From the NCBI RefSeq assembly GCF_004151485.1, contig NZ_SBFF01000010.1:62352-126351 (forward strand): a stretch of DNA of 64,000 nucleotides, written 5' to 3'. The notes beneath the pieces were generated by a model, which saw only the letters and a program-made list of their open reading frames with translations, made no database searches and was not told where the DNA came from. Shown in pieces: positions 39,753 to 47,520 of the stretch. Both the position numbers and the translations under genes were made by a program. Within the stretch, counting starts at the first letter, position 1; the number at the start of each line of letters is the position of its first letter. The DNA comes from Sphingosinicella sp. CPCC 101087. Lineage in GTDB: Bacteria; Pseudomonadota; Alphaproteobacteria; Sphingomonadales; Sphingomonadaceae.

Positions 39753-40811
39753 TCACACTGATCGATCGGGTCCGACTTCGGCACCTACGGCATCGCTGAG
39801 TCGGGCGAAGCCGTTCAGCGTCATGAGCCGCCTCAGCTCGCCGAGAATTCGGGCCGCCAGCCCCGGGCCCTCATAGACCAAGGCGGTATAGAGCTGGACC
39901 AGACTGGCGCCGGCGCGAATCCGGTCGAAGGCATCGACGCCGTTCTCGATTCCCCCGACGGCCACCAACGGCAAGGCTCCGCCGGTTGCCCGGCGAAAGC
40001 CGCGCAGGCGCTCCAGCGCGAGAGCCTTCAGCGGCGCGCCCGAGAGGCCGCCGGCCTCGTTGCGGTGGCGAGACCGGAGCACCGGCCGGCTCACCGTGGT
40101 ATTGCCGACGATCAAGGCATCGACCCTCGCGTCGATCGCGGCTCTGGCGATACCCTCTATCTCCGCCGGCTCCAGGTCCGGCGCCACCTTGAGGAAGACG
40201 GGCGGTCCGGCGCCGCGCGCTTCCATGACGGCGACAAGCAGCGCCTCGAGCGCCGCCCGATCCTGCAGCGCCCGCAGGCCCGGCGTGTTGGGCGACGAGA
40301 TGTTGATCGTCAGATAGTCGCCGACACCCAGGGCCGCCAGAACGCCGGCGCCATAGTCGGCGATCCGGTCTGGGCTGTCCTTGTTCGCGCCGACATTGAT
40401 CCCGACTATGCCGCGGTGACGCGCGTGCGCGGGCGGCTCAAGCCGCGCCAGCGCCGCAGGCTGTCCGTCGTTGTTGAAGCCCATCCGGTTGATCACGGCG
40501 CGATCCTCGGCCAGCCGGAACAGCCGCGGCACGGGATTGCCTTGCTGGGGCCTCGGCGTCAGCGTGCCGACCTCGACGAAACCGAATCCGAATCCCAGCA
40601 TCTGCCGGAATACCTCGGCATTCTTGTCGAAGCCGGCCGCCAGTCCGACCGGATTGGGAAAGACCAGGCCGGCGACCTCGATCGAGAGCATCGGATCGGG
40701 CTTGGGCGGCAGGCCCGGCGGAAGCAGCTTGAGCGCGCGGATCGTCAACCGATGCGCCCGCTCCGCATCCAGCGCGAAGGCGAACGGCCGCACGAGGGGA
40801 TAAAGCGCCAT
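39753..40811 (-). CDS. pyrD: Dihydroorotate dehydrogenase (quinone)
   Basis: Class 2, membrane-associated enzyme of pyrimidine synthesis, oxidising dihydroorotate with ubiquinone. It has 352 residues: N-terminal quinone-tunnel helices ([18 protein letters not shown]), FMN barrel with [51 protein letters not shown] (catalytic Ser) and VGGIENG. All key residues are present. ATG overlaps nothing; upstream lies the suf control region. Confidence 0.96.
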
Positions 40812-41010: not shown

Positions 41011-41142
41011 GGCATGATGGTCTTGGTGCAGACGCTTCGTCATCTTGCGCGTTGCCGCAGCGAGAGCTCGCGCAAACTCTTCGCTTCCCTTTCACCACCT
41101 TCCCCAAGCCGCTTGATTCTCCGCCCTTTCGCGCCCAAATGC

Positions 41143-41169
41143 CCAATCGGAACGAAACAGTCCGATTGG
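41143..41169. promoter_or_regulatory. 9-9-9 bp inverted repeat immediately upstream of sufR
   Basis: CCAATCGGA (41143-41151) and TCCGATTGG (41161-41169) are perfect inverted copies with a 9-base spacer, ending 4 bp before the sufR start. No proper ribosome site lies in between, so the operator covers the initiation region or the message is leaderless. It is a strong candidate operator for SufR autoregulation. It does not resemble the E. coli IscR type 1 or type 2 boxes. Confidence 0.55.
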
Positions 41170-41173
41170 AATC

Positions 41174-41580
41174 ATGCGTCTCACCAGCCTTGCCGATTAT
41201 GCCGTGGTGATGATGGCCGCGGCCGCCCGCCATCCGGCCGGGGCACGGCTGTCGGCGACCTTGCTCGCCGAGGAGACGGGTGTGCCTCTGCCGACCGCCC
41301 AGAAGCTGACCGGACGGCTCGCCGCGGCCGGGCTGCTCGAGACCGCCCGGGGCACCGGCGGCGGATTCCGGCTCGCACGCGGCGCGGACGCGATCAGCCT
41401 TGCCGATGTTGTCGAGGCCGTAGAGGGACCGATTGTGATGACCAGCTGCGTCGATACCGAGCGTCACGAATGCGCGCTGGAGGGCGGCTGCCAGGTCCGG
41501 CCGCATATGGGGGTGGTCAACAGCACCGTTCGCGGCGCGCTCGCAGGTCTCAGCCTGTCCAGTCTTGCAGAGGTGAAGTC

Positions 41581-41584
<4 letters not shown>
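41174..41584 (+). CDS. sufR: Rrf2-family regulator of the suf operon
   Basis: IscR-like Fe-S sensor and DNA-binding protein, 136 residues. The winged helix-turn-helix spans about 1-75 ([40 protein letters not shown]). Cluster ligands are C92, C100 and C106 with His111 nearby, the C-x7-C-x5-C pattern of this group. It probably represses suf when clusters are plentiful. Its stop overlaps the sufB ATG. Cluster type cannot be told from sequence. Confidence 0.92.
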
Positions 41585-43064
<1,480 letters not shown>

Positions 43065-43068
<4 letters not shown>

Positions 43069-43503
43069 GCATCCTTTTTGAACTATCGCTCGCTTTTGCC
43101 ACCGTCCAAACAGGCGGAGCAGGTAGCGCGCCTTTATTTGGACGTTTCGCTGAAATTGGGGTGCCGTACGTTCAATGTGTCCAAAGTCGAGGCCATCGAG
43201 AAAATGTGATCGTCCCGGCCCAAGGGTCCGATATGAGTTGGGCGAGCGCGCGAGCTGCTTTTCGGCAACAACATGGAGCCGACGACACGGATTGCCGATT
43301 CTACACGACCCACGACCGGCTCACCCGCTTGGTCAGTCAGAGATACCCTGCCTTTGACGAAAGACTTGTAGGTTTCATCGTCCATAGTGCGCTTGCCGAT
43401 CTTCAGCGGACAGGATCTCGTCTGGAAAACCTTGAGCGGCTGACAGCAAACGGTTTGCCGCTCGCACCGCCCGCACCGCCTCCCTCGCCAGTGGTCCGAG
43501 ACA

Positions 43504-43520
<17 letters not shown>
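43065..43520 (+). CDS. Unknown protein inserted between sufB and sufC
   Basis: Not recognised. The 151-residue product has a weak hydrophobic N-terminus ([12 protein letters not shown]) that might be a signal peptide, two cysteines (PYVQCVQ and DTDCRFY), a helical middle ([18 protein letters not shown]) and a Pro-rich end ([13 protein letters not shown]). The first 60 bases are 52% GC (31 of 60) and A/T-ending codons are frequent, unlike suf neighbours. It overlaps sufB by four bases and sufC by 17, so it is translated as part of the operon. Acquired gene or fast-evolving Suf accessory are both possible. Confidence 0.65.
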
Positions 43521-44252
<732 letters not shown>

Positions 44253-44256
<4 letters not shown>

Positions 44257-45341
44257 GCCTGCTGACTCTTCCCTCCAACCGGGAGGAAGGCTGGCGCTGG
44301 AGCGATCTCTCCGCGCTGCCCCAGCTTTCCGAGCGTGAACCTACCGGGCGGGTCCCCACCGATCTTCCCTGGATCGCCTGTGAGCGCGAGGGCCCGCGCC
44401 TGCTCTTCGTCGACGGCCGGCTCGACGAGACACGCAGCCGCCTCGGACCCGTCGAGATCGGCCCGGTCGACGTCACGGCGTCGGATCATCCGCTGGCGCG
44501 CCTTGCGGGCCGTTCCGGCTGGCGCCTGCGCCTCGGGCTCGACCATGCCCCGCATGGGCTCGTCCAGATCGTCCATGTCTCGACCGGAGCCGCCGACCAT
44601 CTGGCGGCGCAGATCGAACTCGATGTCGATGCTCAGGCCTCCATCTGCGAGACCTTCATCGGCGAAGGCTGGGCCAATCGGCTCACCGGTATTCGGCTGT
44701 TCAAGGGCAGCCGCCTGATGCTCAGCCGCCGCCTGCTTGGCGCTTCCGGTTTCATCAGTCAGGTTGACCACGCCCAGGTCGGCCAAGGGGCGAGCCTCGT
44801 GGTCGCGAGCCTCGCCGCCGGCGGTACGGACACGCGCCTCGACGGCCATTACGCCCTGGATGGCGAAGCAGCCTATGCCGAGGCCTCCTCCGCTCTGCTC
44901 GCCCGCGGCCGGCAGCGCCATGACGCCAATGTCGTGGTCCGGCATGCCATGCCGAGCGGCGTGAGCCGCCAGGTCTGGCGATCGGTCGCCGACGATCGTG
45001 CGGCCTGCTCGGTCGCGGCGCGGGTCGAGGTCGCGCGCCATGCCCAGAAGACCGACGGCGAGCAGTCGCTCAAGGGCCTGCTTCTCGCCCGTTCGGCGAC
45101 GATCAACGCCAAACCCGAGCTCGAAATCTTCGCCGACGACGTCAAATGCGCCCATGGCGCCACGGTCGGCGAGCTCGACCGCAATGCCCTTTTCTATCTC
45201 GGGAGCCGCGGCGTCTCCCCCGATGAGGCCCGTGCCCTGCTCACCCGCGCCTTCGTCGCCGACGCGCTCGACCGGATCGGCGAAGAGGAGGTGAAGGCGG
45301 CCTTCTACGCGGATGTCGAGACATGGTTCGCAGGCCGGTGA
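44253..45341 (+). CDS. sufD: Fe-S cluster assembly protein SufD
   Basis: Partner of SufB in the scaffold complex, 362 residues. Divergent N-terminus but a clear beta-helix core and C-terminal KTDGEQSLKGLLLARSATINAKPELEIFADDVKCAHGATVGELDRNALFYL (by segments), with the conserved His of CAHGAT. GTG start overlapping sufC; its TGA overlaps the ATG of sufS (TGATG). Confidence 0.94.
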
Positions 45342-46555
45342 TGGACGCGGCCGTCTCCACACGCCCGCTCGACTGGCTCGCCGATTTTCCGGCGATTCCC
45401 GACGGCTGGGCCTATCTGGACAGCGCTGCGACCGCGCAGAAGCCTCAGCCGGTGATCGATGCGATCCATCGCGCTTACTCCGAAACCTATGCGACCGTTC
45501 ATCGCGGCGTTTACCAGCGCTCGGCCGACATGACCCTGGCCTTCGAGGCCAGCCGCCGCCGCGCCGCCCGGTTCATCAACGCCGCCTCGCCCGAGGAGGT
45601 CGTTTTCGTCCGCGGCGCCACGGAGGGCATCAACCTGGTCGCGCAAAGCTGGGGCGGCGCCAACCTGAAACCGGGCGACCGGATCATGCTTTCGGTGCTG
45701 GAGCATCATTCCAACATCGTGCCCTGGCAGCTGACCGCCGAGCGCACCGGCGCGGCAATCGACGTCGCTCCCCTCACCGCCGACGGCCGGATCGATCTCG
45801 ATGCGCTCGAAGCGATGCTGACGGAGCGGCACAAGCTCGTCGCCCTCGCCCATGTCTCCAACGTCCTGGGCTCGGTGCTCGATGCGAAGCGCGCGGCCCG
45901 CCTTGCCCATGAGGTCGGCGCAAAGCTTCTGCTCGATGGCTGCCAGGCGGTGCCGCGCATGCCGGTCGACGTCGCGGAGATCGGCTGCGACTTCTACGTC
46001 TTCTCCGGCCACAAGCTCTACGGCCCCACCGGCATCGGCGTGCTGTGGGCCCGCGGCGAGATTCTGGCGGGCATGCCGCCCTGGCAGGGTGGCGGCGCAA
46101 TGATCGACAAGGTGACGTTCGAGCGCACCACCTATGCACCGCCGCCGGCACGATTCGAGGCCGGGACCCCACACGTCGTTGGCGTCATCGGGCTCCACGC
46201 GGCGATCGACTATGTCGATTCCATCGGCCTCGACTCGATAGCCGCCCATGAGAGGGCACTGGTCGATGAGGCGCGGGGCGCTCTCTCCAGCCTCAACAGC
46301 GTCAGGCTCTTCGGGCCCGACGACAGCGCCGGGATCGTCAGCTTCGCGGTCCAAGGGGTGCATCCGCACGATGTAGGCACCATATTGGACGAGAGCCGGG
46401 TGGCGATCCGCGCCGGCCATCATTGCGCCCAGCCGCTCATGGCTCATCTCGGGGTGGACGCGACGGCGCGGGCGAGCTTCGGGGTCTATAATGGCCGGCA
46501 GGATGTCGAAGCGCTGGTGCGCGGCATCGAAAGGGTGACGAGAATTTTCGGATGA
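45341..46555 (+). CDS. sufS: Cysteine desulfurase SufS
   Basis: PLP enzyme delivering sulfur from cysteine, 404 residues, class II (SufS/CsdA) type. Visible are YLDSAATAQKPQPVIDA, the PLP Lys in FSGHKLYGPTGIGVL, HVSNVLGS and the persulfide Cys in RAGHHCAQPLM. No SufE or SufU gene lies beside it; its acceptor must be encoded elsewhere. The ATG at 45341 overlaps the sufD stop; an ATG six codons upstream is less likely. Confidence 0.95.
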   Translation: MDAAVSTRPLDWLADFPAIPDGWAYLDSAATAQKPQPVIDAIHRAYSETYATVHRGVYQRSADMTLAFEASRRRAARFINAASPEEVVFVRGATEGINLVAQSWGGANLKPGDRIMLSVLEHHSNIVPWQLTAERTGAAIDVAPLTADGRIDLDALEAMLTERHKLVALAHVSNVLGSVLDAKRAARLAHEVGAKLLLDGCQAVPRMPVDVAEIGCDFYVFSGHKLYGPTGIGVLWARGEILAGMPPWQGGGAMIDKVTFERTTYAPPPARFEAGTPHVVGVIGLHAAIDYVDSIGLDSIAAHERALVDEARGALSSLNSVRLFGPDDSAGIVSFAVQGVHPHDVGTILDESRVAIRAGHHCAQPLMAHLGVDATARASFGVYNGRQDVEALVRGIERVTRIFG

Positions 46556-47046
46556 ACGAGCAGCGCAGGATCGAGACCGAGGAAGTCGAGGAAGTGGCCA
46601 AGCCGCCGAAGGCACGCGTCGACGACGCACCGGCCGGAGCCGGCGAAAGCGCCACCGATACGTTCGCGCGCAAGCGCGATTATCTGGAAGGCTTTCTTTC
46701 GCAGGCTCCGCGGCCGGCCGAACCGGAGGTCGAGACGCCGGGCGGCGATCTCTACGAGCGGGTGATCGAGGCGCTGAAGGAAATCTACGATCCCGAGATA
46801 CCGGTGAACATCTACGATCTCGGACTCATCTACGGCGTGGAGATCACGCCCGATCATCACGCCCGTGTCACCATGACGCTGACCACGCCGCATTGTCCGG
46901 TCGCCGAATCGATGCCGGGCGAGGTCGAGCTTCGCGTCGGCGCGGTTCCCGGAATCGGCGACGCCGAGGTCGAACTCGTCTGGGATCCGCCCTGGGACCC
47001 TCAAAAGATGAGCGACGAGGCGAAGCTGGAGCTTGGGATGCTGTAA
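46552..47046 (+). CDS. sufT: SUF-system maturation protein SufT (MIP18/DUF59)
   Basis: DUF59 protein of 164 residues acting in late Fe-S maturation. A disordered acidic N-terminus (~1-65) precedes the domain: VIEALKEIYDPEIPVNIYDLGLIYGVEI and TTPHCPVAESMPGEVE with the conserved Cys, ending WDPPWDPQKMSDEAKLELGML. ATGA overlap with sufS. Followed by a GC-rich repeat before sufA. Confidence 0.94.
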   Translation: MNEQRRIETEEVEEVAKPPKARVDDAPAGAGESATDTFARKRDYLEGFLSQAPRPAEPEVETPGGDLYERVIEALKEIYDPEIPVNIYDLGLIYGVEITPDHHARVTMTLTTPHCPVAESMPGEVELRVGAVPGIGDAEVELVWDPPWDPQKMSDEAKLELGML

Positions 47047-47154: not shown

Positions 47155-47520
47155 ATGAACGCAACGACCACCACCATCCGACGCCCCCGCCCGGCCGCGG
47201 TGCAGCTCACGCCGGCCGCCGAGACACGCATTGCGGACCTGATGGCCCGCGCGCCTGAGGGCGCGGTCGGCGTGCGGCTCTCGACACCCCGCCGGGGCTG
47301 CTCGGGTCTCGCTTATTCGGTCGATTACGTTTCGGCGGAAGACCCGCTCGACGAGAAGATCGAGACGTCCGGCGGCATCTTCTATATCGACGGCGCTTCG
47401 GTCCTATATCTGATCGGTTCGACCATGGACTGGCGCGAGGACGATTTCGCCGCCGGCTTCGTCTTCGAAAATCCCAATGCCAAGGGCGCCTGCGGCTGCG
47501 GCGAGAGCTTCACCGTCTGA
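47155..47520 (+). CDS. sufA: A-type Fe-S carrier protein
   Basis: Carries assembled clusters to apoproteins, 121 residues. The three cluster cysteines are in RRGCSGLAY, and GACGCGESF near the C-terminus. N-terminal Thr/Arg/Pro-rich extension precedes VQLTPAAETRI. Position as last suf gene favours SufA rather than ErpA, though sequence alone does not separate them. GGAG ribosome site before the ATG. Confidence 0.93.
   Translation: MNATTTTIRRPRPAAVQLTPAAETRIADLMARAPEGAVGVRLSTPRRGCSGLAYSVDYVSAEDPLDEKIETSGGIFYIDGASVLYLIGSTMDWREDDFAAGFVFENPNAKGACGCGESFTV

Follow-up and report, generated by a model that had tools for sequence, protein, structure and literature searches.

An inverted repeat lying just upstream of the suf operon in Sphingosinicella sp. 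CPCC 101087 is very probably the autoregulatory operator of this operon, bound by a dimer of the adjoining Rrf2-type regulator, a protein of the TIGR02944/RsuR kind. The dyad occupies positions 41143-41169 of the window (the whole stretch of 64,000 nucleotides that was analysed) and was read directly from the sequence as CCAATCGGA-N9-TCCGATTGG. The original prediction had described a perfect 9-9-9 repeat ending 4 bp before the start codon of sufR, and the letters agree: the right arm is followed by AATC and then, after this gap of 4 nt, by the regulator ATG at 41174. The dyad had also been suggested to be an operator for suf control. With conserved and covarying arms at the suf promoter it does look like one, and as such provides a precise, testable candidate operator for the control of Fe-S cluster building in a large bacterial family. 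We infer the binding of the regulator, the promoter elements, switching by the cluster and the sign of control.

The repeat, its regulator gene and the suf operon

The features of the region are as follows.

39753-40811, minus strand: pyrD, the divergent upstream neighbour (profile search, part of the protein scanned)
41113-41118, plus strand: predicted -35 element TTGATT (from reading; 43 nt to the dyad centre; 17-nt spacer)
41136-41141, plus strand: predicted -10 element CAAATG, no T at -7 (by analogy with Zymomonas and Novosphingobium promoters)
41143-41151, plus strand: left arm of the predicted operator, CCAATCGGA (direct reading, promoter columns, covariation)
41148, plus strand: predicted transcription start, within the left arm (from a 6-nt discriminator)
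41152-41160, no strand: 9-nt spacer ACGAAACAG, moderately conserved in the column table of 79 named promoters
41161-41169, plus strand: right arm of the predicted operator, TCCGATTGG (direct reading, promoter columns, covariation)
41174-41584, plus strand: Rrf2-type regulator (sufR/rsuR-like), 136 aa, with Cys92, Cys100 and Cys106 (open reading frame, profile searches)
41581-43068, plus strand: sufB (NF008773, 895 bits), its ATG overlapping the regulator stop codon (ATGA)
43065-43520, plus strand: open reading frame of 151 aa that overlaps both sufB and sufC (Pfam search at E <= 0.001: no match)
43504-44256, plus strand: sufC (TIGR01978, above cut-off)
44253-45341, plus strand: sufD (best model TIGR01981, 185.5 bits, under the cut-off of 222)
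45323-46555, plus strand: sufS (TIGR01979, above cut-off)
46552-47046, plus strand: SUF-associated, SufT-like protein (TIGR02945, above cut-off)
47155-47520, plus strand: sufA-like A-type carrier (TIGR00049 above cut-off; sufA model TIGR01997 99.6 bits, under its cut-off of 136.2)

Considered simply as an inverted repeat, the dyad does not exceed chance in the window. Perfect 9-bp arm pairs with a spacer of up to 20 nt numbered 41, overlapping pairs included; in 30 dinucleotide shuffles, such pairs averaged 19 and never exceeded 31. Three of the 41 have a spacer of 9, and the two other perfect 9-9-9 repeats of the window were found at 517 and 9548. Because perfect 9-bp repeats are so common here, the dyad had to be judged by conservation, and it is its conservation at homologous promoters that is beyond chance. 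The exact 27-mer occurs a single time in the 4.70-Mb genome.

On gene order alone, the regulator is the first gene of the suf operon, the suf genes following on the same strand. It belongs to the Rrf2 family (PF02082, 99.5 bits for a cut-off of 30) and, among NCBIfam models, matches TIGR02944 (SUF regulator) best, with 101.8 bits; this lies below the cut-off of 110.65, which was passed by 9 of 10 scanned relatives. The name SufR used in the original prediction invites confusion with the cyanobacterial SufR, which belongs to another protein family. NCBIfam presumably holds a model for the cyanobacterial protein, and this model was absent among the 8 NCBIfam matches of the regulator at E <= 0.001. 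With Escherichia coli IscR the protein shares the Rrf2 family (4hf0, E 1.4e-9), the wing Arg59 and three cysteines, but it scored 61.4 bits against the IscR model TIGR02010, below the cut-off of 207.55, and is thus not an IscR by this measure. The contact residues differ as well: Ser40, Tyr41, Glu43 and Gln44, named as IscR base contacts in excerpts of PMC11475020 and PMC9973013, are Pro, Thr, Gln and Lys in the regulator. In an alignment of 175 regulators, some of them identical to one another, Cys92, Cys100 and Cys106, the three cysteines expected of Fe-S sensing Rrf2 proteins, were found in 175/175 sequences, as was Arg59, while His111 was found in 161/175.

Conservation and promoter anchoring of the dyad

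Comparison promoters were found via the regulator protein, independently of the motif. A named set comprised 80 loci, of which one duplicate was dropped, leaving 79 distinct promoters. A family set comprised 59 genomes from 58 genera, our own included. From 41 relatives we obtained 23 same-genus promoters (own included) and 16 outgroup promoters from other families of the order; two same-genus genomes, 82 and 86% complete, had no regulator ortholog. The dyad stood at the homologous place in all 79 named promoters. Scored with a weight matrix built from these 79, 57 of the 59 family promoters, 23/23 same-genus and 10/16 outgroup promoters exceeded the 99th percentile of shuffles, a test that is not fully independent since the sets may share species. 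Scores above 15 bits, higher than every shuffle (family maximum 10.6 among 2950), were reached by 48/59, 23/23 and 1/16 promoters, respectively; 11/59 family promoters stayed below this mark and 6/16 outgroup promoters below the 99th percentile. Of the two family promoters under the 99th percentile, L145 carries another form of dyad and L180 (genome G066) yielded no dyad recognised by the matrix.

Pairing was also counted without reference to the motif. All seven positions from ±5 to ±11 paired in 34/59 family promoters, compared to 1.5% of shuffles, in a count made with one locus (L132) misplaced. Compensatory pairs were evident across 57 family sites: GC 40, AT 5 and CG 2 at ±7; CG 46 and AT 3 at ±8; TA 44 and CG 2 at ±9; AT 42 and TA 9 at ±10. 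The ±5 pair was invariant. Arms that failed to be conserved or to covary in relatives would have spoken against the original prediction, and the arms proved both conserved (57/59 family promoters) and covarying. A record labelled Microvirga sp. SRT01 (L037) holds a regulator 74% identical to that of the window with the same operator type; its name may be wrong.

We then located the dyad relative to the promoter, using only promoters with a matrix score above 3. Upstream of the dyad centre, a TTGA was present at a distance of 30-52 nt in 71/79 named promoters (66 of them at 41-43 nt), 47/56 family promoters (39 at 41-43 nt), 20/23 same-genus promoters (19) and 9/9 outgroup promoters (8); in promoters with several TTGA we used that closest to 44, a choice that makes the counts somewhat tighter. 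The distance from the dyad centre to the ATG varied from 15 to 65 nt in the named set, 14 to 99 in the family, 12 to 58 in the genus and 35 to 92 in the outgroup. The dyad therefore keeps its position relative to the promoter and not to the ATG.

In the window, a single base separates the predicted -10 element from the dyad, which would span about -5 to +22, with its centre at 41156, about +9 relative to the predicted transcription start. This start was placed at 41148, inside the left arm, because a discriminator of 6 is the commonest in mapped Zymomonas promoters, for which 17 is the commonest spacer (excerpts of PMC7566282). The missing T at -7 fits with alphaproteobacterial sigma70 promoters, most of those examined, including most from Novosphingobium, lacking this base (excerpts of PMC8407463). 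The suf promoter of the window is probably of sigma70 type. A heat-shock (sigma32) promoter was also considered. CCCATnTG, seen in the suf promoters of some relatives, resembles sigma32 -10 elements. The groES upstream regions of relatives (14/15 loci, own genome left out) often carry TTGAC with CTAAAT- or CACATG-like elements and were unable to discriminate between the two types. For Caulobacter CC_1866, excerpts of PMC3751524 give an RpoH motif prediction.

Scanning the 59 family genomes for exact AATCGGA-N9-TCCGATT gave 26 sites, 24 of them within 150 bp upstream of sufR and the other two in genomes G094 and G073; the reversed control pattern occurred at one place. This distribution suggests a dedicated autoregulatory site. 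One-mismatch sites also numbered 26, of which 7 were beside sufR. Two of the others, L193 (G041, ~1795), between genes named by eye as cysH-like and BLUF-like, and L194, inside a long open reading frame, are probably there by chance. In our own genome, the search for further copies called for by the original prediction gave one exact site and no one-mismatch site; at up to 3 mismatches 121 places were found against 30 for the reversed control, so that weaker further sites may exist. Each of the ten two-mismatch places overlaps at least one mechanical open reading frame of 100 aa or more, and a promoter may be among them.

Operator form and recognition residue

In order to delimit the operator form, we compared it with promoters of the same regulator kind outside the family. 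A regulator matching TIGR02944 at E <= 1e-25 was present in 21/57 genomes of the class and 28/60 of the phylum. Without family members, this wider set held 19 promoters of other orders of the class and 26 of other classes, their 45 regulators being chosen by the TIGR02944 match alone and not by gene neighbourhood; the 26 stem from 24 genomes, several of one genus, and are hence non-independent. The form CGGA-N9-TCCG was found in 36/59 family promoters (shuffle mean 0.4), compared to 0/16 in other families of the order, 0/19 in other orders and 1/26 in other classes. Ascribing this operator to alphaproteobacterial suf control at large, as had been suggested, was therefore too wide.

In bacteria of other families, regulators of this kind are often preceded by (G)GAC-N7-GTC(C), the operator class that holo-RisR of Myxococcus protects (PMC9973013). 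The pattern [GT]AC-N7-GT[CA] was found in 11/16 same-order outgroups (shuffle mean 0.95), 12/19 promoters of other orders (1.1) and 12/26 of other classes (1.2), that is 24/45 for the last two sets (2.3), with 21/45 lacking it, and 35/61 for all outside promoters; 12/59 family promoters have it as well (2.0). The reversed control pattern gave 5/16, 0/19, 8/26 and 7/59 (means 1.05, 1.5, 3.35 and 3.98), so that part of the excess in outgroups is non-specific. Both forms have GA at ±6 and ±5. In the family form, ±4 is relaxed, and C at ±8 and AAT at ±9 to ±11 are fixed. The most plausible reading of CGGA-N9-TCCG is that of a known type of Rrf2 operator in shifted form. The distinct operator class that had been proposed is better described as such a variant.

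At position 43 of the recognition helix (IscR numbering), 146 of the 175 aligned regulators have Gln, 14 have Ala and 13 have Ser. We counted half-sites in the 67 family and order genomes whose site scored above 0, a limit that removed two family and six outgroup genomes, uncorrected for descent and with two Ser43 proteins sharing the same promoter. Ser43 proteins (n=7) went with G at ±7 in 0/14 and C at ±4 in 14/14 half-sites, Gln43 proteins (n=45) with G at ±7 in 74/90 and C at ±4 in 36/90, and Ala43 proteins (n=13) with 18/26 and 17/26, respectively. A tentative reading, which we hold to be possible and somewhat doubtful, is that the suf regulator and operator of Sphingomonadaceae underwent a joint switch of recognition code, with release of the inner C (±4) and fixation of an outer C (±8) and of AAT (±9 to ±11), giving CGGA-N9-TCCG, as Gln43 replaced Ser or Ala. 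Two observations speak against a simple code: Ser43 proteins of other classes commonly go with G at ±7, and locus L211, from another order, combines Gln43 with a GTAC/GGAC-type site. On account of L211 we gave the joint switch less weight. If true, it would describe an Rrf2 operator with close to a single target, the change of which could be traced in living species, with the Ala43 lineages in between. These promoters offer a natural series for studying the joint change of regulator and site.

Proposed control of suf and related systems

Among the closest known systems is RisR of Myxococcus xanthus, whose holo form protects T(t/g)GAC-N7-GTCC(t/a) and represses isc and suf. Like the window regulator, RisR is an Rrf2-type protein encoded by the first gene of a suf operon, with a promoter palindrome and three conserved cysteines, and its operator has GA at ±6 and ±5, as the window dyad does. 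Unlike the RisR site, the family form is CGGA-N9-TCCG, relaxes C at ±4 and lies downstream of the predicted -10; RisR, which controls two operons, sits over both promoter elements of suf (-35 and -10) and over the -10 and transcription start of isc (all for RisR from excerpts of PMC9973013). The dyad departs from the core GAC-N7-GTC of RisR and IscR type 1 sites: its left half reads GGAA and its right half GGAC, with C at ±4 on one side. The Escherichia coli IscR type 1 box has the GAC-N7-GTC register. RsuR of Zymomonas mobilis (ZMO0422), likewise an Rrf2 protein encoded by the first suf gene, is likely a putative ortholog of the window regulator; PMC13064070 and excerpts of PMC12817903 and PMC6372839 gave no operator sequence for it. 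The Zymomonas suf genes and ZMO0422 rise on oxygen exposure (PMC6372839, excerpt), and a title of 2024 in a reference list, 'RsuR ... regulates Fe-S cluster biogenesis', indicates that the Zymomonas relative has already been named. The present operator would tie Sphingomonadaceae to this RisR/RsuR kind of regulator.

On this basis, we propose that the regulator binds the dyad as a dimer and there, from about -5 to +22, would obstruct RNA polymerase at the transcription start. As in RisR and IscR, an Fe-S cluster would be held by the regulator, on Cys92, Cys100 and Cys106, and in this state the protein would repress suf; under iron shortage or cluster damage, the apo regulator would release the dyad and sufR-sufBCDS-sufT-sufA would be expressed. 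Negative autoregulation by the holo dimer is suggested by the repression of isc and suf by holo-RisR, and by the rise of Zymomonas suf with oxygen.

Other explanations of the dyad were weighed against this operator. It might serve another factor controlling suf, such as an oxidative-stress or iron regulator, which we consider improbable. Since the site is single and beside a single gene, another protein may read it, and a second dyad resembling a Fur box lies just downstream in 29/79 named relatives, so that more than one regulator may share the promoter in some species. However, several sites per genome would be expected of a global regulator, and 24/26 exact sites adjoin sufR; the dyad also keeps GA at the two positions (±6 and ±5) where the RisR site has it, and promoters of other families often hold the GAC-N7-GTC form at this place before the same kind of regulator. 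That the repeat arose by chance, or belongs to the divergent pyrD, is hardly credible. Perfect repeats are common in the window and pyrD is the usual neighbour, but it lies within 1.5 kb of sufR in just 51/79 named loci when the dyad is present in all 79, and 57/59 family promoters conserve it.

The original prediction had also allowed for an mRNA hairpin masking the initiation of sufR translation, and we rejected this very unlikely explanation on the promoter anchoring and the predicted transcription start. The full repeat folds well as RNA (-16.1 kcal/mol, z -2.45) and ends 4 nt before the ATG in the window, and at ±7 seven of the 10 sites without a Watson-Crick pair have G-T, which RNA tolerates. 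At ±8, however, G-T wobbles were found in 0/8 unpaired sites. RNA starting from 41149, just after the predicted start inside the left arm, folded no better than shuffles (z +0.5). With a nearly fixed distance to the -35 and an ATG distance ranging from 12 to 99 nt, the dyad therefore behaves as a promoter operator rather than a translation-masking hairpin; anchoring, predicted start and RNA folding together favour a DNA operator and argue against masking of translation by the repeat.

As originally predicted, the dyad differs in sequence from the published IscR boxes compared and from the CAAC-type site named for cyanobacterial SufR. IscR of Caulobacter crescentus and Rhodobacter sphaeroides is also an Rrf2 protein encoded by the first isc-suf gene and controlling its operon, but the TypeI/TypeII motifs of Caulobacter and the 19-bp Iron-Rhodo-box of Rhodobacter are other sequences and serve regulons (excerpts of PMC11475020 and PMC4618611), whereas exact sites of the window type are nearly confined to one promoter per genome. 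The literature searched held no description of the Sphingomonadaceae operator, and a text search for the arm letters gave unrelated titles among the matches listed; regulon databases and Rodionov 2006 lie outside that search. Rodionov 2006 reportedly deals with alphaproteobacterial iron and IscR boxes, and the motif may have been predicted earlier, for instance there.

Two further repeats were observed. A second dyad, TTTGAGAATGGTTCGCAA and variants, which we take to resemble a Fur box, lies directly downstream of the operator in loci such as L083, L085, L094 and L097; besides the named promoters, it was seen in 2/59 family, 2/23 same-genus and 0/16 outgroup promoters, and it was not found in the window's own suf promoter. 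The CIRCE element of HrcA is a 9-9-9 inverted repeat near promoters, with arms TTAGCACTC and GAGTGCTAA. The window dyad shares this layout, but its arms are unrelated and TTAGCACTC-N9-GAGTGCTAA does not occur in it. A CIRCE-like 9-9-9 repeat was seen upstream of groES in relatives (L195-L200 and other loci), and our own genome gave two groES-type matches.
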